Shown here one piece after another: positions 4,966 to 59,011 of a stretch of 64,000 nt of DNA. The stretch's first letter is position 1. Every line of letters starts with the position of its first letter. Both the position numbers and the translations under genes were made by a program. This stretch comes from Acidobacteriota bacterium (GTDB taxonomy: Bacteria > Acidobacteriota > Holophagae > Holophagales > Holophagaceae): contig JAJYRN010000001.1 in assembly GCA_021794095.1 (NCBI GenBank), positions 310,001 to 374,000 of the forward strand, written 5' to 3'. Under the pieces are notes generated by a model. It did not search any database. It had not been told where the DNA came from and saw nothing but the letters and a program-made list of their open reading frames with translations.

Positions 4966-5454
4966 TCAGCCTTCGAGTTCCGCCAATTGCTCCCGGTGGT
5001 CATCTCGCAGACGCTCCAGCAGGCTGAGGAGTTGGTCGCGCTCCGCCGGGGAGAGGCAGTGGTCCACCCGGGCGGAAAGGGCCTGGTGGCGCGCCCGGAG
5101 GCGGGCCTCCAGCGCCTGCCCCTTGGCCGTGAGCTGGACGCGGCTGCCCCGGCGGTCCGCGGGATTCTCGCAGCGCTTGACGAGGCCCCTGGCTTCGAGC
5201 CGATTCACGAGGCGCGGCACGTCCGCGAAGCGGAAGATCATGCGGCAGCGGAGGTCCTTCACGAGGTAGCCCTCCCTGGGTCCACCCTTGAGGATGCGCA
5301 GGACGTTGAACTGCTGATCTGAGATCTCTTCCCGTTCAAACAGTCCCTTGTCGAACAGCCGGGTCAAGTATTCCCGGCCCAGCAGCAGGGCCAGAGCCAC
5401 CTCCTGGCCGGGCTCGAAGGACTTGGTGATCTGAAGTTCCTCGCGCAGGTGCAT
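4966..5454 (-). CDS. MarR family transcriptional regulator
   Basis: A winged-helix regulator of about 162 residues. The DNA-binding region runs from SDQQFNVLRILKGGP through FADVPRLVNRLEARGLVKR to the wing NPADRRGSRVQLTAKGQ, the standard MarR order. I start at the ATG at 5454 (MHLREELQI); the longer open frame to 5550 would overlap the divergent promoter. It is divergent from a YceI-family gene, and MarR/YceI pairing is common, so it is probably a repressor of yceI and of itself. It converges with nuoD and splits the complex I genes. Confidence 0.9.
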   Translation of the reverse strand: MHLREELQITKSFEPGQEVALALLLGREYLTRLFDKGLFEREEISDQQFNVLRILKGGPREGYLVKDLRCRMIFRFADVPRLVNRLEARGLVKRCENPADRRGSRVQLTAKGQALEARLRARHQALSARVDHCLSPAERDQLLSLLERLRDDHREQLAELEG

Positions 5455-5502
5455 GCCACCGCTCCTCGCCTTCAAGCATGGCACATTTTTTTGAAAAAGG
5501 AT

Positions 5503-5531
5503 GTTGCAACTCTTGTTTCCGAGCCTAGACT
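5503..5531 (+). promoter_or_regulatory. promoter and possible MarR operator before yceI
   Basis: A TTGCAA element at 5504-5509 and a TAGACT element at 5526-5531 are separated by 16 bases, a plausible sigma-70 promoter for yceI. The -35 lies inside the perfect 8-bp palindrome GTTGCAAC (5503-5510), and an AT-rich run with TTTTTTTGAAAAA lies just upstream at 5486-5498. A repressor bound here would block the promoter and the divergent marR start. The promoter is read from sequence; the operator role is inference. Confidence 0.45.
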
Positions 5532-5568
5532 GTATTCCATGGTGAAACACCTAATCCAAGGAGGCTTC

Positions 5569-6150
5569 ATGCGTCACCCCTTCCGCATCCTCTTCGCGGC
5601 CCTCGCACTGGCGGCCCTGCCCGCCACGGCCCAGGACGTCTACAAGATTGATCCCGTCCACAGCGAGATGGCCTTCACCATCCGGCACCTCCTGGCCAAG
5701 ACCAGCGGCCGTTTCACGAAGTTCTCGGGCGAGATCCACCTGGACAACAAGGACATCACCAAGTCCACGGTGACGGTCACCATTGACGCCGCCAGCATCA
5801 ACACCGACAGCACCATGCGGGATAACGACCTGCGCAGCCCCAGGTTCTTTGATGTGGCGAAGTACCCCACCCTCACCTTCACCAGCACCGCGGTGAAGGA
5901 AGTGGCCAAGGGCAAGCTGGAGATCACCGGCACATTCACGATGCACGGGGTCACGAAGCAGATCACCTTTCCCATCACCAATGAGGGAACCGGCCAGGGG
6001 ATGCAGCCCGGGAGCGTGGTGGCGGGCTTCATTGACGGCGCCCTGACCCTTGACCGGGATGACTATGGCATCACGACCTATGATGGATTGGTCGGCCGAC
6101 ATGTGGCGATCACCCTGAACGTTGAAGCGGACAAGGTCAGTGGAAAGTGA
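5569..6150 (+). CDS. YceI-family periplasmic lipid-binding protein
   Basis: About 193 residues with a cleavable signal peptide (MRHPFRILFAALALAALPATAQ) followed by a lipocalin-like YceI domain that binds polyisoprenoid-type lipids. Family marks include YKIDPVHSEMAFTIRH after cleavage, SINTDSTMRDNDLRSPRFFD in the middle and GTFTMHGVTKQITFPI. I chose the ATG at 5569 because an AAGGAGG ribosome site sits 5 bases before it. It is probably controlled by the divergent MarR protein and cotranscribed with the CDGSH gene 10 bases downstream. Confidence 0.92.
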   Translation: MRHPFRILFAALALAALPATAQDVYKIDPVHSEMAFTIRHLLAKTSGRFTKFSGEIHLDNKDITKSTVTVTIDAASINTDSTMRDNDLRSPRFFDVAKYPTLTFTSTAVKEVAKGKLEITGTFTMHGVTKQITFPITNEGTGQGMQPGSVVAGFIDGALTLDRDDYGITTYDGLVGRHVAITLNVEADKVSGK

Positions 6151-6160
6151 GGAGGCAGCC

Positions 6161-6403
6161 ATGAGCGAATCCGAACCCAAGATCGCGGCCAAGGTTCCCG
6201 CGGTGCTGGATCTGGAACCCGGCACCTACTGGTGGTGCGCCTGCGGCCTGAGCGCCAAGCAGCCCTTCTGCGATGGCGCCCACAAAGGCAGCGGCTTTCA
6301 TCCCATGAAACTGGAGATCACGGAACCCGGGAAGAAGGCCCTCTGCCAGTGCAAGCACTCGAAGACGGCGCCCTTCTGCGACGGAAGCCACCGCAACCTC
6401 TGA
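6161..6403 (+). CDS. CDGSH-type iron-sulfur protein (double motif)
   Basis: An 80-residue protein with two CDGSH-type zinc-finger-like motifs, each binding a [2Fe-2S] cluster with three cysteines and one histidine: CACGLSAKQPFCDGAH and CQCKHSKTAPFCDGSH. There is no signal peptide or membrane segment, so it should be cytosolic. The start at 6161 has a GAGGAGG site just before it and follows the yceI stop by 10 bases. Its role is unknown; in this position it may serve redox or iron-sulfur functions linked to the yceI operon. Confidence 0.9.
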   Translation: MSESEPKIAAKVPAVLDLEPGTYWWCACGLSAKQPFCDGAHKGSGFHPMKLEITEPGKKALCQCKHSKTAPFCDGSHRNL

Positions 6404-6515: not shown

Positions 6516-7091
6516 ATGAACCACCCCCAGCCTCCCGAAACCTCCCCGGAACCCCTCGCACCCGGCCAGCGACTGCCGGAAAGCGAGGTCAAGGAGTTCA
6601 GCCCCGAGGCCCTGTCGGAAATCCAGGCCATCATGGCCAAGTACCCCGACAAGATGGCTGCCACCCTGCCGGCCCTGCACATCGCCCAGCGCGAGTTCGG
6701 CTTCATCAGTCTCTCAGCCATGAAGGCGGTGGCCAAGGCCATCGGCATTCCCGAAGGCCACGTCTTCGGCGTGGCCACCTTCTACACGATGTACCAGAAG
6801 GCCCCCGTGGGTCAGTACCACTTCCAGGTCTGCACGAACATCAGCTGCGCCCTGAAGGGAGCCGCCCAGCTTCTCGAGAAAGTCTGCGAGAAGACCGGCG
6901 TGAAACCCGGCCAGGGGCCCAGCCCCGACGGCCTGTGGAGCGTCGAGGAAGTGGAGTGCCTCGCGGGCTGCAGCATGGGCCCCTGCATCCAGGTGAACCA
7001 CGATGTCTACGATGAGCTGGTGGACGAGCAGAAGCTGATCGAAGTCATGGAAGCCTGCAAACGCGGCGACTACCGCCCCTGGGCGCATTGA
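6516..7091 (+). CDS. nuoE: NADH-quinone oxidoreductase subunit E
   Basis: The 24-kDa-type thioredoxin-fold subunit of the NADH dehydrogenase module, about 191 residues. The four [2Fe-2S] (N1a) ligands are seen in VCTNISCALKG and ECLAGCSMGPCI. The start at 6516 gives MNHPQPPETSPEPL, a proline-rich leader of about 30 residues before the domain. A TAAACT hexamer at 6488-6493 suggests a promoter just upstream, separate from nuoABCD. The gene ends exactly where an AT-rich island begins. Confidence 0.95.
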   Translation: MNHPQPPETSPEPLAPGQRLPESEVKEFSPEALSEIQAIMAKYPDKMAATLPALHIAQREFGFISLSAMKAVAKAIGIPEGHVFGVATFYTMYQKAPVGQYHFQVCTNISCALKGAAQLLEKVCEKTGVKPGQGPSPDGLWSVEEVECLAGCSMGPCIQVNHDVYDELVDEQKLIEVMEACKRGDYRPWAH

Positions 7092-7839
7092 AACTTAATA
7101 GAGGCCAATCTATGCGGTCAATTTGGGATGAATTGGCTGATCTTGCCAACACCTATAGCAAATGCATAGGAAACGACTCCATTCCCCAAAATCTTTGGAT
7201 TGGAAGAATCAATAACGAGATGGGTTTAGCCCCTCTGCCAATTGACACATCTTCTACCATAGAGATTCAAGTAGCTATCGTTGGCCTTGAACCAGCAGCC
7301 CCTCCCCCTCAGCACAATCAGTATGAAAATAATAAAGAAATTTTATACAACTCTTCCGTACATTGGGCTTCTCTAGGAAATGGCAATCACAACTCGACTC
7401 CGTTTTGGAATGGAGTTCGCTTGTTAGCAGAAAAAATTAATTTTTCTTTGCGAAAAGATAATCAAGCTGGAGATATAAATTTTTTATTTATTAATATTTT
7501 CCCTTTTTATAACAACAGGAATCAAGATCTAGCTCGATTAACTTGCCATCACTTGAAAAAATTTGCACTTAGGGGTGCAAAAATCATTGCACTTGGAAAC
7601 ATGACACAAAATATTCTACAGGCCAATAATATTAAATTTTTGCAGGCTTACCACCCCTCATCGCCTAATGGTTTCTTTTATAGATCACTCATTTTAATTG
7701 ATATCTAAAATTTCCACCACAAGGATTTAGAATCTTTATACTCAAGTAGCAAAACACCTCCGGAATGTACATTTACCAAGTTCTTTTGGCATTAATTGCT
7801 ACTTATCTGGTTTAATGTCAATCAGCTTAGGACTAAAAA
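7092..7839. other. AT-rich island inserted between nuoE and nuoF
   Basis: Base composition drops abruptly at the nuoE stop codon and returns to G+C-rich at the nuoF start. For example, positions 7441-7500 hold only 11 G or C in 60, against about two thirds in the flanking genes. The island carries one ORF (7112-7708) and a 131-base AT-rich stretch before nuoF. I see no terminal inverted repeats, no target duplication and no integrase, so the mode of entry is unknown. Confidence 0.85.
7112..7708 (+). CDS. unrecognised protein, possible uracil-DNA glycosylase-like fold
   Basis: A 198-residue ORF with codon and base use wholly unlike its neighbours. Two features recall the uracil-DNA glycosylase superfamily: an early strand-loop VAIVGLEPAAPPP (about residues 60-72), where that family has its GxxPG-type motif, and a late AYHPSSPNGFF, where it has the HPS motif, preceded by a KIIALGNMTQNIL strand-helix. 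Aspartate or asparagine catalysts are not clearly placed, so this is a weak fold suggestion and not a function. The ATG at 7112 has AGAGG eight bases upstream; a TTG at 7088 overlapping nuoE is an alternative. It looks like recently transferred cargo. Confidence 0.6.
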   Translation: MRSIWDELADLANTYSKCIGNDSIPQNLWIGRINNEMGLAPLPIDTSSTIEIQVAIVGLEPAAPPPQHNQYENNKEILYNSSVHWASLGNGNHNSTPFWNGVRLLAEKINFSLRKDNQAGDINFLFINIFPFYNNRNQDLARLTCHHLKKFALRGAKIIALGNMTQNILQANNIKFLQAYHPSSPNGFFYRSLILIDI

Positions 7840-9210
7840 ATGGTCGCCATCCGAACCAAGCCTGATCCCCAGATCTACACCTTCCCCGGCTTCGGGTCCG
7901 AGAAGTTCCCGAACCTGATGCTCCGCGGCGCGGGCGACCTGGACAACTGGCACCTCAAGGTCTACGAGCAGAAGCACGAAGGCTACGTGGCCATGAAGAA
8001 GGCCCTCCAGATGGAGCCCGTGGCCGTGACCGATGAGATGAAGGCCTCGGGCCTCCGAGGCCGCGGCGGCGCGGGTTTCCCGGCCGGCCTGAAATGGTCC
8101 TTCATGCCCAAGGACTCGCCCGAGCGGACATTCACCCGCTACCTGGTGTGCAACGGTGACGAGGGCGAGCCCGGCACCTTCAAGGACCGCGTCATCCTCG
8201 AATACAACCCCCACCAGCTCATCGAAGGCATGATCATCGGCGGCTGGGCCATGCAGTGCCAGCTCGGCTTCGTCTACATCCGGGGCGAGTTCCTCTGGCT
8301 CATCGAGAAGCTGGAGGCCGCCATCCAGCAGGCCCGCGACGCCGGTTACCTCGGCAAGAACATCCTGGGCACGGGCTGGGACTACGACATCATCGTCCAC
8401 CGCGGCGCCGGGGCCTACATCTGCGGCGAGGAGACGGCCCTGCTGAACTCTCTGGAAGGCCGCCGTGGCGAGCCCCGCGTGAAACCGCCCTTCCCGGCCG
8501 CCAAGGGCGCCTTCGGCCAGCCCACCACCATCAACAATGTGGAGACCCTGGCCGCCGTACCTCCCATCCTCCGTATGGGCGGCGCCGAATACACCAAGAT
8601 CGGCTCCCCGAAGAACAGCGGCACCCGCATCTTCGGCGTGAGCGGCCATGTGAAGCGCCCCGGTATCTACGAGCTACCCATGGGCACGCCCCTGAACTTC
8701 CTGGTGGAGGAACTGGCGGGCGGCTCCGGCACAGGCCGGAAGATCAAGGCCATCATTCCCGGCGGCTCCAGCTGCCCCATGCTGGACGAGAAGGATTTCG
8801 ACGTCCCCATGGACTTCGACAACCTGAAGGCCCGGGGCTCCATGGGCGGATCCGGCGGTGTCATCGTCATGGACGAGAGCGTCTGCATCGTGCAGGCCAC
8901 CCTGCGCCTCATCCGCTTCTACGCCCACGAGAGCTGCGGCCAGTGCACCCCCTGCCGCGAAGGCTGCAACTGGATGGAGATGGTCCTCTACCGCATCGAG
9001 CACGGCGAGGGCCGCATGGAGGACCTCGATCTGCTGGCTGGCCTCACCCCGCGCATCGGCCTGCGCACCCTCTGTCCCCTGGGCGATGCCGCCTGCGGCC
9101 CCATGGACTCGGCCCTCCAGAAGTTCCGGCACGAGTTCGAACACCACATCACCCACAAGACTTGCTATGCCCAGGGCTCGCGGCTGCTGTCCAAGGCGGG
9201 TGCGCACTAG
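7840..9210 (+). CDS. nuoF: NADH-quinone oxidoreductase subunit F
   Basis: The 51-kDa-type subunit that binds NADH and FMN, 456 residues. Visible marks are the FMN/NADH glycine-rich GLRGRGGAGFPAGLKW, the GAYICGEETALLNSLEG region and the N3 [4Fe-4S] ligands ESCGQCTPCREGCNW with a distal cysteine in LRTLCPLGDAACGP. With NuoE it forms the electron-input module. The gene is followed by a strong hairpin, so the transcript ends here and nuoG onward must lie elsewhere. Confidence 0.96.
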   Translation: MVAIRTKPDPQIYTFPGFGSEKFPNLMLRGAGDLDNWHLKVYEQKHEGYVAMKKALQMEPVAVTDEMKASGLRGRGGAGFPAGLKWSFMPKDSPERTFTRYLVCNGDEGEPGTFKDRVILEYNPHQLIEGMIIGGWAMQCQLGFVYIRGEFLWLIEKLEAAIQQARDAGYLGKNILGTGWDYDIIVHRGAGAYICGEETALLNSLEGRRGEPRVKPPFPAAKGAFGQPTTINNVETLAAVPPILRMGGAEYTKIGSPKNSGTRIFGVSGHVKRPGIYELPMGTPLNFLVEELAGGSGTGRKIKAIIPGGSSCPMLDEKDFDVPMDFDNLKARGSMGGSGGVIVMDESVCIVQATLRLIRFYAHESCGQCTPCREGCNWMEMVLYRIEHGEGRMEDLDLLAGLTPRIGLRTLCPLGDAACGPMDSALQKFRHEFEHHITHKTCYAQGSRLLSKAGAH

Positions 9211-10972: not shown

Positions 10973-12517
10973 TCAGAGGGCAAGGCCAAGCAGAGGAGGC
11001 TGTAGCTGAACCGGCTCATTCCGAGTCGAACCTATCCAATCCTTCAGGCCGCTTTCATCTATCACGAACATCGGAATCGGCAGGCGGATGAGTGCTTTAG
11101 GCTCGACCTTGATGGCGCCTCCCCCATAGCTCTTCCCCACCTGGATGAGCCCCTGCAATGTGGCAGGGTGGTTGAGCGCTTTCCAAAGGCAGTCGAGGAA
11201 GGCCGGATCCCGGTGCCTTGGGTACAGGCATAGAAACCCCGTGAGAGGAACCACGCCTACCTCGTTCCTGATAAATCGGGTGTGCCGACGGCCCAGGTAA
11301 GAGAAGAGAAAGGGGGGCGGGGTCCGAGACTCCATCTTGTACCAGGGATTGCGCATGGAGATGAGAGCGCGCGATGGAAGTCCCTGTGCTTCCCCCTCTT
11401 TTAAGTAGTCCTGAACGGTCTTCGGGAAGAGATATTGCTCTCGTCCATCTAGGGCAAGCAAGTACGTCGGTACTCCAGCCGCTTCTAGAGCTTCAAGGTC
11501 GGTGGAGCGTACAGCCTCTGACTTCACATCCCGCGTCTTCCCAACGGCCCGAACCAGGAGGTCATCGGGGATTCCCAAGGCTTGTGCCCTGCCATGGGTC
11601 ATAAAGAAAAAGTCATTTGCGCCTGTGGCGATACCACGAAGCGTGGTGGCAAAATGAGAGAGGGGAATAACCTCCTCCTGGTCGGCCCTGGGAGCCCTCC
11701 CAACACCTCGCTCCACGGCCTCGACGAGGGGGAGGCTTACCACCTCGAAAGATTCGAGGCCGACGAGGGGAAGCCCCTGCTCAACCCACTGGTCGAAAGC
11801 CGCGGTTCCTGGTTCCAGACAAGTAGCCTGAAGCATGGACTCCGTCGGGGGGAGGTTCGAGATGAGCAAGACCAGGGGGTTCGTGTCTACACCAGGAAAT
11901 GGCGTAGCTGCTGGGGCGAACCGCACCACGGCGTGGATCCGGTAGGTTCTGTTGATCCATTGCCAGAGGGTGCGTGCGAATACGCCTTCTGCGACATCCG
12001 AAGGAACGATGAATGCCAACTGTTGGCCCGGATGGAGCAGGCTGAGGGCGTGGATCAGGAAAAAGACATGCAGCCCGGCGCGGCCATCGATGCGAAGTCC
12101 GGCTTGGGCCGCCAGGATCCGCAACCGGGCTTTATCTTCAGAAGACAGACGATGATGGCGCACATAGGGCGGGTTGGACACAATCCCCATGGGTTTTGGA
12201 AGAGTGGAGACCGTGAGGAAATCCACCGGTTCCACCCCCGCCAATTGAGCTTCCGTCAGCCCATTCTCCCTGGCTTCAGCGAGTGGCCCTGCGTGCGGCT
12301 CACACCCGAGGTAAGCCCTCCCGAGATCGAGATCGGGCCGGAGGCCGTGAAGGCCATTCCCGAAAGCAGCGGCTCCCACACCAGCATCGTAGATTGAATC
12401 GCCTCGGTTCAGGGCAAAGCGCACCATGGGCCGAGCAACCCAGGAGGGCGTCCAGAATTGGCCTTTGTCGCGGAGCCGCTCCCTGGCCTGCCACCTCGGG
12501 TTTTGTTCCTTCTGCAT
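10973..12517 (-). CDS. type II N6-adenine DNA methyltransferase
   Basis: A 514-residue methylase that should protect host DNA by adenine-N6 methylation. Near the N-terminus KGQFWTPSWVARPMVRFAL and the SAM-binding motif DAGVGAAAFGNG are visible, then the catalytic motif IV as SNPPYVRHHRL (about residue 115). The order, SAM motif before NPPY and a long C-terminal half for target recognition, fits the gamma-type M.TaqI/Eco57I-like enzymes. It is divergent from a small HTH regulator and a nuclease-like gene, the usual layout of C-protein-controlled restriction-modification systems. Its G+C is lower than the surrounding genes, consistent with transfer. Confidence 0.88.
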   Translation of the reverse strand: MQKEQNPRWQARERLRDKGQFWTPSWVARPMVRFALNRGDSIYDAGVGAAAFGNGLHGLRPDLDLGRAYLGCEPHAGPLAEARENGLTEAQLAGVEPVDFLTVSTLPKPMGIVSNPPYVRHHRLSSEDKARLRILAAQAGLRIDGRAGLHVFFLIHALSLLHPGQQLAFIVPSDVAEGVFARTLWQWINRTYRIHAVVRFAPAATPFPGVDTNPLVLLISNLPPTESMLQATCLEPGTAAFDQWVEQGLPLVGLESFEVVSLPLVEAVERGVGRAPRADQEEVIPLSHFATTLRGIATGANDFFFMTHGRAQALGIPDDLLVRAVGKTRDVKSEAVRSTDLEALEAAGVPTYLLALDGREQYLFPKTVQDYLKEGEAQGLPSRALISMRNPWYKMESRTPPPFLFSYLGRRHTRFIRNEVGVVPLTGFLCLYPRHRDPAFLDCLWKALNHPATLQGLIQVGKSYGGGAIKVEPKALIRLPIPMFVIDESGLKDWIGSTRNEPVQLQPPLLGLAL

Positions 12518-12613
12518 GGTGCGGATCCCGTCATCAACTTGGCTGATCGTCTATGGGCATCTGAACTGCCTGGTCATAGTTTCATCCATACACTCGAGTG
12601 GCCAGGGTGATTT
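12518..12613. promoter_or_regulatory. divergent control region of the restriction-modification cassette
   Basis: This 96-base spacer separates the methylase ATG from the controller TTG. It holds a perfect 10-bp palindrome CACTCGAGTG at 12591-12600, 13 bases before the controller start, and a looser CTATG...CATAG dyad at 12551-12579. C proteins bind dyads of this kind (C-boxes) next to their own start, so one of these is the probable operator. Which one is inference. Confidence 0.5.
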
Positions 12614-12832
12614 TTGAGCAAAAGTGACCTGAAGAAATCATTGGGCATCCGCATCCGATCCATTCGATCGGATCAAGGCTTGACGCAAGAGGAGCTTGCC
12701 CACAATTCAGGGCTCCACGTCACCTATCTATCCATGATCGAGCACGGGAAGCGGAACCCGTCGCTGCAGGTCCTCCAAGGTGTAGCCAAGGGCTTGAAGA
12801 TCTCCCTCTCAACGTTGCTCGAAGGGCTATGA
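12614..12832 (+). CDS. restriction-modification controller (C) protein, XRE-type HTH
   Basis: A 72-residue single-domain helix-turn-helix protein: the HTH covers LTQEELAHNSGLHVTYLSMIEHG, split in the middle by the turn, about residues 23-45. Its size and position just upstream of the nuclease gene and divergent from the methylase match controller proteins such as C.PvuII, which delay nuclease expression until the host is methylated. The start is a TTG at 12614. The stop codon is one base from the nuclease ATG, so the two are translationally linked. Confidence 0.85.
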   Translation: MSKSDLKKSLGIRIRSIRSDQGLTQEELAHNSGLHVTYLSMIEHGKRNPSLQVLQGVAKGLKISLSTLLEGL

Positions 12833-12833
12833 C

Positions 12834-13730
12834 ATGGCCAAGGGCAAGGGCAGAGGCCTTGATTTCGAGCATCGTTTTCGAACCAGCCGATGGGCAGAGG
12901 ATCTTCTTCAGGATGCGCTGAACAGATCCGGCAGGTTCCTCTGTTTCAAGCTGGGGCTATCCCAGGTTGCCGTGGATAACCGGCCCGATCCGGGAGATGC
13001 CACATTCAAGGAGCCCGATTTGGTGATCTTCCATCCCCAGGATCTCACCGGGGAGGAGCGCCAGTGGCTTGAGCAGACCGACCTGACCCAGATGCTCCCA
13101 AGGAATTTATTGGGAGACCCGTTTGTTCGTGTATTGCTGGCCAAGGCCCGGTGCGCCATCGAGGTGGAATTCTCCCCTTACAAGGCCTCAGAAATGAAGG
13201 ATCGCGCCTGGATCCCCAAACATCCTGACGACCTTCTCAGGCGACCCCGCAAGCACGCCAACCCACCAACAGCACCCAACATCTGGGTGAAGCTGGAAGA
13301 TCTGCCCAGGCTTCGGGCATGGGAACGCGCCTTCAACATCCCCATTATCGTGGCCCATCTGTTCGATCAGGAAGCTTTCGCAGTGCCGTTGGCGACCTTG
13401 ATTCATCTGGAAGCCCATTGGCCCGACAGTGCCGAAGAGGCGGTACACCTTCAGCTGACAACTGGAATTTTCAGGAAGATTCAATCCTACGACCGAGTGG
13501 ATGCACAGGGGGCTGGGGAGACCAAGGTTGTATTCGTGGTCAGTCCTGCCGCAGCCCAGCTGGTGGGCACCTTGACTGGCGTGGCGGTGACTGCCCAGAT
13601 CGGCTTGAGTTCGTCTAAGAAATACGTGGCCCATGTGCTGTTCCAAGGCGGAACCCTGACCTTTTCAGATACCTTCCTGGATTTCCTGTCGGCCCGACAC
13701 GCGCTAGATTCAAAACCTTTGACCCCTTGA
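12834..13730 (+). CDS. probable type II restriction endonuclease
   Basis: A 298-residue protein identified mainly by position, between a C protein and no other gene, divergent from the adenine methylase. A PD-(D/E)XK-like pattern can be read: KEPDLVIFHPQDL (about residues 61-73) followed by CAIEVEFSPYKASEMKDR (about 105-122), where the acidic pair and a lysine could bind metal. I do not recognise the exact family; AccI-like or BsuBI/PstI-like enzymes are candidates. Target sequence cannot be read from the protein. Composition is lower in G+C than the neighbours. Confidence 0.7.
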   Translation: MAKGKGRGLDFEHRFRTSRWAEDLLQDALNRSGRFLCFKLGLSQVAVDNRPDPGDATFKEPDLVIFHPQDLTGEERQWLEQTDLTQMLPRNLLGDPFVRVLLAKARCAIEVEFSPYKASEMKDRAWIPKHPDDLLRRPRKHANPPTAPNIWVKLEDLPRLRAWERAFNIPIIVAHLFDQEAFAVPLATLIHLEAHWPDSAEEAVHLQLTTGIFRKIQSYDRVDAQGAGETKVVFVVSPAAAQLVGTLTGVAVTAQIGLSSSKKYVAHVLFQGGTLTFSDTFLDFLSARHALDSKPLTP

Positions 13731-20908: not shown

Positions 20909-21836
20909 TCACGGGTTCGCTGCGTGGTTCAGGAGTGATCGGTAGGTGATGGGTTTGGGCAAAGGATATCGCTCAAGGATGCGATTCATCTTGCCCCAGT
21001 TGACCTTCGCCCGCTGGGACCTCCGGTCCAGCCATTTCCTCCAGAGCCTCGTCACCCGATAGTGAAAGTTGCCCAGCGACTTCGAGTTTCCGGTGATCCC
21101 GTAATACTGGAAGTGCCCGCGCAGTTTCTGCCATAAGGCCCGCTGTTGCTCCTTCAGTGGCCGGTGCCGATTCCTGCTCATCCATTCGCCTATTCGCTTG
21201 ATTGCTCGGCTGAATCGGCTCTTGGCGGTCTTTCGTTTTACCACCCATCTCCCATTCTTCGAGGTTCCCCAGTAATGGGTGAACCCCAGGAAGTCGAAGT
21301 GCCCCGGTCGCCTGTCCGGCGGGTCCTTTGGGCCTCGTGGCTTGCTGAATTGCACAAGTCTTGTCTTCTCCGGGTGGAGTGTAAGACCGTACTTCTCAAA
21401 CCGCTTGGGCAACACTGCATGCACCCTTCTGGCATCCACCTCCAGTTCGAAGCCCATGATGAAATCGTCCGCATACCGAACGAGGAAGGCCCGGCCTTGC
21501 AGCCGTGACTTTACCTCCCTCTCGAACCACACATCGAGAACCTCGTGCAGGTAGATATTCGCCAACAGAGGTGAAATGACGCCACCCTGCGGGGTTCCGG
21601 TCTCGGGATGTGTGATGCACCCCTTGTCCAGGACTCCCGCTTTCAGCCACTTCCCGATCAGGCGTTTGATCACCCCATCTTGCATCCGTTTGGCCAGGAT
21701 TTCTCGGAGATGCGCATGATCCAGCTTGTCGAAATATTGCCGGATGTCCGCGTCCAGAACCCACCCCCCATTCATACCCATCAACTGCTATCCGTCGTTG
21801 TTTCGTCGAGACGCTTGTGGGATCTGATGCTCCCAT
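20909..21836 (-). pseudogene. ltrA: group II intron reverse transcriptase/maturase, internally deleted
   Basis: The C-terminal 291 residues are intact from GGWVLDADIRQYFDKLDHAHL, split at the DIR core, through the catalytic YADD (FLVRYADDFIMGF) to the maturase domain ending KPITYRSLLNHAANP. The N-terminus is found separately at 21836 as MGASDPTSVSTKQRRIA, the usual opening of these proteins. The roughly 110-120 residues between (RT0 and RT1 blocks) are missing, and the two parts are in different frames at about 21786. A TTG at 21784 could restart translation, but without RT0-RT1 the enzyme should not prime. No HNH endonuclease domain is present. Confidence 0.85.
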
Positions 21837-22430
21837 CGTCTTTCCCTCCGACAGTTCCGTGATCCGGCAGCCCCTTCGCTCCGACGGGTCCCTACGGACT
21901 GGTTCCCCGCCTTCCTCGCTACTACTGGCTGCTCCGACTTCCCGATGCCCCTCCCGCCGCGCTTCGTTGCCTTCGTTTGGCGGTACCACCCAAGTGCCCG
22001 TTGTTCGTCTCTCCCATGGGCGTCGGCACGCCACCCAGAGCCAGGGTTCTTTGGTTCGTGGCTTCCCCAACCACGCTGTGTCGATGGAGACACCTGGATC
22101 TCCCAGGTTCCTGTGGAACCCCTATGCCCACATGCCCTGCTCTTTGACCCCGACGGAACCCTTGGGCCTAGCCCTTACGACCCGCAGGTGCTGCCTTCCG
22201 GACAGTGAACGCCGTCGGCTTCCGTACTCAGATGCTTTCGGGGCTCGATCACACGGCCTATGGGCCCCCTGTCTACGCTTCGCAGAGTCGGTCGCCCTTC
22301 CCTACGCAAGACTCGGTTCCGGCTGCTGGCCTGCTTTGCCGGGCGGGCACTTTGACCCGCTGGGTCCCCTTACGAGGTTTCCGTTTGACTATGTCATCCT
22401 TCCTCCCCGCCCAGGCTTGGCCTGGCGCAC

Positions 22431-56797: not shown

Positions 56798-57482
56798 TGG
56801 CTCCGTCCTGCCCTGAACCGGCGTCCCGATGCAGGGCCAGGGTGCAGTCGCACAGGCCCGCGACGGACCTCCGGTCATGGCTGGCCATCAGGAGGGTCAG
56901 GCCTTCGGCCTTGAGATCCAGCAACAGGGCCCGCAGGTGGCTCGCCAGGGTGGGATCCAGGGCCGAGAAGGGCTCGTCCAACACCAGCAGCGCCGGTTCC
57001 AGCATCAGCGCCCGGGCCAGGCAGAGGCGCTGGGCCAGGCCTCCGGACCAGGCGGCGGGAAGTTGGCTCAGCGTGGCCTCCGGGAACTTCACCCGCGCCG
57101 CCATCTGCGCAGCGGCTTCGCGCCGGGAGGCGGGCGTGCCGCGGCCCTGGATCTCCAAGGGTTCCGCCAGGATCTCCCACCCCGTGCGATGGGGCGGCAG
57201 GCTGGCGTGGGGATCCTGGAAGACCGCCTGCATCCGCGCGCGCCGGGGCCGCCGGTCCCGTTCCGGCACGCCCGACCAGGGCAACCCGTCGAGTCGCACC
57301 GCGCCCTCGGCAGGCTCCAGGAGCCCCAGCACGAGGAGCAGGAGTGTGGTCTTGCCCGCGCCGCTCTCGCCCACCACGCCCAGCGCCTCGCCCGGGGAAA
57401 GACTGAACGACACGTCCCGCAGCACCCAATCCCCGCCCCGCCGGAAGCCCAGGGCCTCGGCGGAAAGCAGGGGCTGAATCAG
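56778..57482 (-). CDS. ABC transporter ATP-binding protein
   Basis: A ~234-residue ATPase of the oligopeptide/nickel (DppF/OppF-like) style. Walker A is [17 protein letters not shown] near residue 38, the Q-loop [13 protein letters not shown], a weak signature [15 protein letters not shown], and Walker [17 protein letters not shown] with the H-loop MASHDRRSV. The frame has no ATG before the domain; translation may begin at CTG 57482 or ATT within the serS stop region, so the start is uncertain. The last ~10 codons and TAG lie in the intergenic repeat. No permease gene is nearby. Confidence 0.75.
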
Positions 57483-59011
57483 CGGATCACCTCGGCGCCC
57501 AGGTAGGGGCGCAGGGCTTCGGGCACGACGATACTGCCGTCGGGCTGCTGGTCGTTCTCCAGGACGGCCACCCAGGTGCGGCCCACGGCCAGGCCGCTGC
57601 CGTTGAGGGTGTGCAGATAGGCCGGCTTGCCGTCCTTCGGCCGGCAGCGGATGTTGGCGCGGCGGGCCTGGAAGTCGCCGAACCAGCTGCAGGAGCTGAT
57701 CTCGCGGTAGGTATTCTGCGAGGGCAGCCACACCTCCAGATCGTAGGTCTTCTGGCTGCTGAAACCCATGTCGCCCGTGCAAAGCAGCACCCGGCGGTAG
57801 GGCAGGCCCAGGGCCTCCAGGATGGCCTCGGCGTTGCCGGTGAGCCGCTCCAGCTCCGCCTCCGCCTGCTCGGGCCCGGTGAAGGCCACCAGTTCCACCT
57901 TGTGGAACTGATGCTGGCGGATGATGCCCTTGGTGTCCTTGCCGTAGCTGCCCGCCTCGCTGCGGAAGCAGGGCGTGAACGCACAGTGGCGCAGCGGCAG
58001 CGTCTCCGCGGGCAGGATCTCATCCCGGTAAAGGTTCGTGACGGGCACCTCAGCGGTGGGGATGAGATACAGAGGATTTGTGCGCCGGCCTTGTTTCTCG
58101 ATCTCTCGGAATCGCTCGAAAAGATCTCGATAAGTTGCCTCCTCCTCCCAATTAGCACCGGGAGCCCAGGCTTGAATATTCTCTCTTATAAATTCTTTTA
58201 AACGAGTCGTTTTGTCAGTTCCAAAATTCCAAATCAACTGATCAACAATTTTATAATTAACGATAACTTCAAGAACTAATTTATTTTCAGCGATTTGTTG
58301 ATAAGTAAACTTTACATTTCCAATCTCATACAGATGCTCTGGAGCAAATTCACCCGGAATTTTGAAGAGGTCCTGCTCGAACTTCGGCAGCTGCCCCGTG
58401 CCGTACATGCTCTCGGCGTTCACGAGGTAGGGCGGGATCACCTCCTCATAGCCCGCGGCGGTCTGGCGGTCGAGCATGAAGGCGATGAGGGCCCGTTCGA
58501 GTTTCGCGCCCAGCCCCTTGAGCACCGCGAAGCGCGCCCCGCTCAGTTTCGCCGCGCGGTCCAGGTCGAGGATGCCGAGCTTCGTGCCCAGCTCCACGTG
58601 ATCCAGCGGCGTCTCGATGGCCGGGATCTGGCCCCAGCGCTTGATCTCCACGTTGGCGTGCTCGTCCTTTCCCTTGGGCACGCTCGGATGCGGCAGGTTG
58701 GGCAGGCCCGCCAGGAAGTCGCGGAACGCGGCCTCGGCCTCGCGCTCGGCCAGTTCCAACGCCTTCAATTTGTCGCCCACCTCCCGCTGCGTTGCGATGA
58801 GGGCATCGGCGTTCTCCTTGGCCCGCTTGAGGCGGCCCACCTCCTCGCTCACGCGGTTGCGCTCGGCCTTCAGGGCCTCGGCCTCCTGGAGCACGGCCCG
58901 GCGCCGCTCGTCCAGGGCGCGGTAGCCCGCGGTATCCAGCACGTAGCCCCGGTCCGCCAGGCGGGCTGCCACGGCGTCGAGATCGTTGCGCAGGAGGTTG
59001 GCATCGAGCAT
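57479..59011 (-). CDS. serS: seryl-tRNA synthetase with ~90-residue insertion
   Basis: Charges tRNA-Ser. At 510 residues it is longer than the usual ~425. The N-terminal coiled coil covers about residues 28-100. Motif 2 and 3 regions are intact: [41 protein letters not shown], and the terminal [18 protein letters not shown]. Between FEQDLFKI (residue 218) and [11 protein letters not shown] (residue 312), where most bacterial enzymes have about ten residues, an extra stretch is inserted, coded by AT-rich DNA. The reading frame is unbroken and the flanks fit normally. Confidence 0.93.
58079..58360 (-). other. AT-rich in-frame insert within serS
   Basis: About 280 bases of low G+C (17 G or C in the 60 bases 58201-58260) inside an otherwise G+C-rich gene. 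It encodes roughly residues 219-311, with stretches such as [20 protein letters not shown] and [15 protein letters not shown] that suggest a small alpha/beta domain. There are no intein splice motifs at its edges. It lies next to the active-site motif 2 and could touch the acceptor stem. Confidence 0.8.

Follow-up and report, generated by a model that had tools for sequence, protein, structure and literature searches.

A probable horizontally acquired gene for a uracil-DNA glycosylase-like protein in place of the nuoE-nuoF spacer of an acidobacterial genome

A single gene in an AT-rich island lies between nuoE and nuoF in the window, the stretch of 64,000 nucleotides analyzed here (Table 1). 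The island has a G+C content of 36.2% against a window mean of 67.5%, and it exactly fills the space from the nuoE stop codon (TGA, 7089-7091) to the nuoF start codon. The initial annotation had described a sharp change of composition at these two codons within a respiratory operon; the coordinates are exact, the open reading frame (ORF) does lie between these codons, and Pfam confirms both neighbors. In a scan of the window, every 748-nt stretch with 40% G+C or less falls at the island, and the lowest G+C fraction elsewhere in this comparison is 0.548, found at the island's shoulder. The codon-position G+C of the ORF (0.43, 0.35, and 0.33) differs from that of nuoF (0.63, 0.45, and 0.91).

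The island holds one real ORF. None of 20,000 first-order Markov sequences of equal composition reaches 198 codons, which shows that the ORF is not due to chance, and the ribosome site that had been noted before it is the AGAGG sequence. The original GGAG-type ribosome site of nuoF has gone with the insert, and the AGGA of the island stands at a similar spacing instead. No promoter or terminator in the island stands out over shuffled sequences. Upstream, between nuoD and nuoE (4966-6403), there are genes for a MarR-like regulator (minus strand), a YceI-like protein, and a CDGSH-type iron-sulfur protein, named by inspection.

Table 1. Features at the nuoE-nuoF junction (positions in the window)
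Feature	Position	Strand	Evidence
nuoE, 191 aa, left neighbor	6516..7091	+	PF01257, E=1.1e-45; 97% identity to G027
AT-rich island, 748 nt, in place of the 13-nt spacer of the nearest relatives	7092..7839	+	Composition; junction comparison; single copy in own genome
AGAGG, ribosome-binding site of ORF, 7 nt 5' of ATG	7100..7104	+	Sequence reading
ORF, 198 codons, predicted UDG-like orphan protein	7112..7708	+	Random-sequence test; motifs and fold match
Motif GLEPA, residues 58-62	7283..7297	+	Aligned to VGLAPAA (family 5) and VGEAPG (family 4) profiles
Asn128 in FINIFPF, at the place of the UDG base-recognition Asn	7493..7495	+	Invariant with phage UDG-like family
HPSSPNG, residues 181-187, at the C-terminal HPS motif of UDGs	7652..7672	+	Aligned to YHPSQQNTFT (family 5)
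AT-rich untranslated tail, 131 nt, with 9-bp inverted repeat 7744-7752 / 7796-7804	7709..7839	+	Not attC; fold z about -1
AGGA, replacement ribosome site of nuoF, 7 nt 5' of ATG	7829..7832	+	Sequence reading
nuoF, 456 aa, right neighbor	7840..9210	+	PF01512, PF10589; 98% identity to G027

Comparison with related genomes shows that the ORF was acquired in the lineage leading to this species alone (unless the sister has lost it), and that it took the place of the spacer from stop codon to start codon. Among 47 congeneric genomes nuoE was located in 46, and 44 nuoE-nuoF junctions are readable besides the window's own. The ORF is present at none of the 44. In a tree of nuoE and nuoF from 43 species, the species of the window is sister to G027 with support of 100/96. 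The G027 spacer is 13 nt long (TCGGAGCAAGCAC), and no trace of it is left at either end of the island. It is this short spacer in the sister, together with the absence of the ORF from the 44 congeners, that places the gain on the branch of the species. The gene is found in one species and in no related species with a readable junction, and it is therefore a recent foreign arrival. The earlier suggestion that a gene had entered the operon is thus supported, as an insertion specific to this lineage.

Searches of 60 relatives, about 297 genomes of the phylum, and plasmid and phage records found nothing related to the ORF, and a pattern scan across species genomes gave no relative either. Several candidate matches were rejected as chance. 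The match in L032 is antisense to another ORF, the one in G106 is also antisense, those in G562 and G654 contain internal stops, and the plasmid DNA matches of 25-46 nt are due to low complexity.

Motif and profile comparisons suggest, with moderate confidence, that the protein is of the uracil-DNA glycosylase (UDG) type. It has no family over cut-off in Pfam, NCBIfam, PHROGs, or PADLOC (PADLOC 2023), and the PF03167 profile gives no match at E<=10 and stays below its curated cut-off. Faint UDG-like motifs had been noted in the ORF, and both GLEPA and HPSSPNG are found where they were placed. GLEPA falls at the place of the UDG motif that carries the catalytic Asp or Asn, and the ORF has Glu60 there, which is unusual. 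It comes after model strand 53-58, in agreement with UDG motif A, which follows the first core strand and has the pattern G-x-[D/N/E/A]-P-[G/A/Y]. The C-terminal HPS/HPA motif of UDGs, located after the last strand, is represented by YHPSSPN. His181, Pro182, Ser183, and Asn186 are invariant with a phage UDG-like family described below.

Only 3 of 5,000 shuffled versions of the ORF score as high against a profile built from 19 UDG-like cellular proteins of the relatives, and none of 5,000 reaches the ORF score against the family-5 UDG profile. Both profiles align VGLEPAA and the HPS motif in the right order, and both tests are independent of how the phage hit was chosen. Family-4 UDGs alone are not significant by hhalign or HMM comparison, and with two other UDG-like groups the ORF scores below the level of the cellular and family-5 profiles.

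A family of phage proteins resembles the C-terminal part of the ORF. A scan of viral contigs with this part led to an ORF of a T4-like phage (L096 4806-5177), which has KIIALGNM...NNI..L..HPS.N in the same register and 52% identity over 33 residues. The phage family matches the PF03167 UDG profile with E=6.4e-4, just under the curated score, and hhalign joins the island ORF to it at 86.5%. The family was picked by means of an exact 8-residue match; masking of these residues leaves the score against the phage profile alone without significance, since 196 of 5,000 shuffles equal it, although the 25 residues that follow them, kept in fixed register, beat 200,000 shuffles. L096, L097, L111, and L125, which are contigs of T4-like phages, share an ungapped KIIALGNM...NNI..L...HPS.N with the ORF, and the phage contigs have a low G+C content (33-39%) like that of the island. 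However, the phage proteins do not have the approximately 50 N-terminal residues, their middle part is shorter, and overall identity is 22-33%.

The phage family itself (L096 4806-5177; L097-L109; L111; L125) is apparently undescribed. Its members are about 120 aa long and have the UDG motifs GHSPG, NLV, LGN, and HPSGLNRIWND. In the full-length alignment of the ORF with the phage proteins the middle was misaligned, so only C-terminal pieces were used. A PDB profile search with the family found only leucine-rich repeats and other unrelated chains.

Structure prediction is suggestive of a UDG fold but is not proof of it. The AlphaFold2 (AF2) model of the ORF alone is unusable (pLDDT 37). Addition of eight phage rows over residues 123-194 gives a model with pLDDT 50, pTM 0.54, and the strand-helix order of a UDG, and these rows are shallow and may have steered the model. 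When the 1000 best Foldseek chains were re-examined with VIA-align using this poor model, ranks 1-10 were all UDGs (Z 6.9-5.6 over 129-150 residues), including the SMUG1 proteins of Geobacter, Xenopus, and human, Bradyrhizobium UNG, vaccinia D4, and the M. tuberculosis UDG. The first unrelated row has a Z of 5.5, and values below 8 on a poor model can reflect only a common arrangement. Foldseek itself finds nothing significant and has no UDG in its top 50. The earlier hint of a UDG has survived the phage-family match, the shuffle tests, and the ten best fold matches.

The ORF shares with the UDG superfamily (PF03167; families 3 SMUG1, 4, and 5) G-x-E-P-A at the place of motif A, the Asn in N-I-F-P-F, the strand-LG element, the HPS motif, and, in the model, the order of helices and strands and the top VIA-align rows. 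It differs from the superfamily by the lack of a significant family match, by Glu at the Asp/Asn place, by being an orphan in everything searched, and by its location inside nuo. It is possible that the same recent horizontal gain brought in a protein that is not a UDG, such as a phage moron, a toxin, or a selfish ORF, in which GLEPA and HPS arose by chance. An orphan of this kind would agree with the lack of a family in the four libraries, the insignificance of the masked phage profile, and the low confidence of the AF2 model. However, the occurrence of the motifs in UDG order, the near absence of shuffles that reach the family-5 and cellular profiles, and the ten best structural rows make it unlikely.

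No new kind of mobile element is needed to explain the presence of the gene. The initial annotation had described an insert without visible integrase or repeats, and searches for both came back empty: there is no recombinase or integrase gene with the island, terminal repeats and a target duplication were not found, and the island ends have no common direct or inverted word of 7 bases or more. An IS element or transposon was rejected for lack of terminal inverted repeats and target duplication. An integron gene cassette was rejected because the island has no GTTRRRY or RYYYAAC attC core and its 3' tail folds no better than shuffles. About 400 kb more of the same genome contains no similar insert at an operon junction, but mostly AT-rich intergenic stretches and one AT-rich gene region. 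An AT-rich gene at L175 12315-13346 (contig C8 of G000) encodes about 344 residues at approximately 40% G+C within a lower-G+C stretch and is another likely foreign gene in this genome.

Seamless replacement of the spacer is usual at this junction, since the history of the genus includes at least nine switches from one spacer state to another. The 44 congeneric spacers include 30 of 9-14 nt, 3 of 69 nt, and 11 that consist of a 102-103 nt REP-like linker, and the changes were counted by placing these states on the nuoE and nuoF tree. Stop-to-start swaps recur, and recombination within the conserved genes on either side presumably brings them about. Seamless ends are also expected from selection, since an insertion beyond the 13 bases would damage a complex I subunit. 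The proposal that the seamless ends could be the mark of an unknown route by which single genes move is therefore not supported. By itself seamlessness does not point to a new route, and ordinary recombination with selection for intact nuoE and nuoF fits. Among the nuoE-nuoF junctions (for example L010, L011, L025, L029, L186, and L197), the linkers of the 11 congeners hold a REP-like palindrome, and most genomes of the genus have further copies of this palindrome at other places.

Three further explanations fare poorly. A single-gene mobile element of an unknown kind with a precise preference for the space between a stop and a start codon would account for the seamless ends and for a second AT-rich seamless replacement in the same window, in serS. 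It is very unlikely given the single genomic copy, the absence of terminal repeats, target duplication, attC core, and recombinase, the lack of a similar insert in the additional 400 kb, and the frequent swapping of this junction by other sequences. An assembly chimera or contaminating sequence might be suspected because the gene is found in one assembly only. This is highly improbable, as the island is inside a 411-kb contig, the listed values for the genome are 99% completeness and 0.1% contamination, and the island ends exactly at the stop and start codons and supplies a ribosome site for nuoF. That the gene belonged to nuo ancestrally and disappeared from every relative examined is a formal possibility with nothing further in its favor. 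It is very improbable, as 44 congeneric junctions spread over all sides of the tree lack the gene, which would have to be lost in every other branch and has a foreign composition.

The serS gene (57479-59011, minus strand; further loci L132 and L144) contains a variable insertion slot, and this is the second AT-rich, seamless, lineage-specific replacement in the window, here within an essential gene. At 58073-58360 an AT-rich domain of about 96 residues takes the place, in frame, of an 8-residue loop after DLFK, and this domain is 58% identical to one at the same place in G023. The AT-rich domain that the serS of G061 has there is unrelated to these and about 115 residues long, and the other congeners in which the loop was read keep the short form (29 loci examined). 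The domain has no Pfam family, and besides the G023 homologue nothing else was found in 396 phylum genomes, plasmids, viral contigs, and phages. Elsewhere in the window, an ORF at 20909-22070 (minus strand) resembles a group II intron reverse transcriptase.

On balance we favor horizontal acquisition of a gene for a phage-type, UDG-like glycosylase that would be transcribed together with nuo. On the branch to this species, horizontal transfer would have brought in one AT-rich gene with a composition like that of phages, and the short nuoE-nuoF spacer would have been replaced by ordinary recombination, either illegitimate or homology-flanked. The gene may have been kept because its landing site comprised the only freely changeable bases between nuoE and nuoF. 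Transcription from the nuo promoter would reach it by read-through, and its own ribosome site would serve for its translation. Its protein most likely has the UDG fold and would flip a base out of DNA and remove it, either in an accessory role in base repair or in an attack on phage DNA that contains unusual bases.

Members of the UDG superfamily flip a base out of DNA and hydrolyze the glycosidic bond, and the ORF protein would use Glu60 at the GLEPA place, Asn128, and His181 for base excision. Two other PF03167 proteins, one of them a family-4 UDG, are already encoded by the host, which makes a simple repair need less obvious. A role in defense is possible. It is suggested by the foreign origin, the phage-type relatives, analogy with Brig-type glycosylases, and a restriction-modification-like locus 3 kb away. 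Brig1 and Brig3 are anti-phage glycosylases that attack phage DNA with modified bases (PMC11078745, PMC13160076). By description they resemble the predicted ORF product in being small UDG-type proteins with an accessory gene, and in many cases they have no counterpart in databases and are encoded close to restriction genes. However, the ORF is in a respiratory operon rather than a defense island, and its glycosylase activity is only predicted. The restriction-modification-like locus (10973-13730) encodes an Eco57I/MTase_II-type DNA methyltransferase and a 298-aa ORF without a family, perhaps its restriction partner. It lies between argF and a CBS-domain gene and is absent there in three congeners (G065, G001, and G063).

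A bolder proposal is that the ORF opens a new branch of anti-phage DNA glycosylases of the Brig-like kind, as its first known member, with its expression guaranteed by a housekeeping operon, and that defense genes travel singly by replacing the spacers of conserved operons and not in defense islands. We regard this as doubtful. The ORF can also be compared with the ORFan genes found inside operons (reviewed in PMC10138114), which likewise have no homologues in close relatives and occur in a conserved operon. It differs from them in that the empty site and the exact spacer replacement are visible. The locus is a clean and datable case of the entry of a foreign orphan gene into a conserved operon, in which one can see the sister species, the junction without the gene, and exactly which spacer was replaced. 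If the protein is not a base-excising enzyme of the phage type, the gene is an ordinary operon ORFan. If it is such an enzyme, it would represent a divergent branch of UDGs with Glu at the usual Asp/Asn place and would be a candidate for defense against modified phage DNA.
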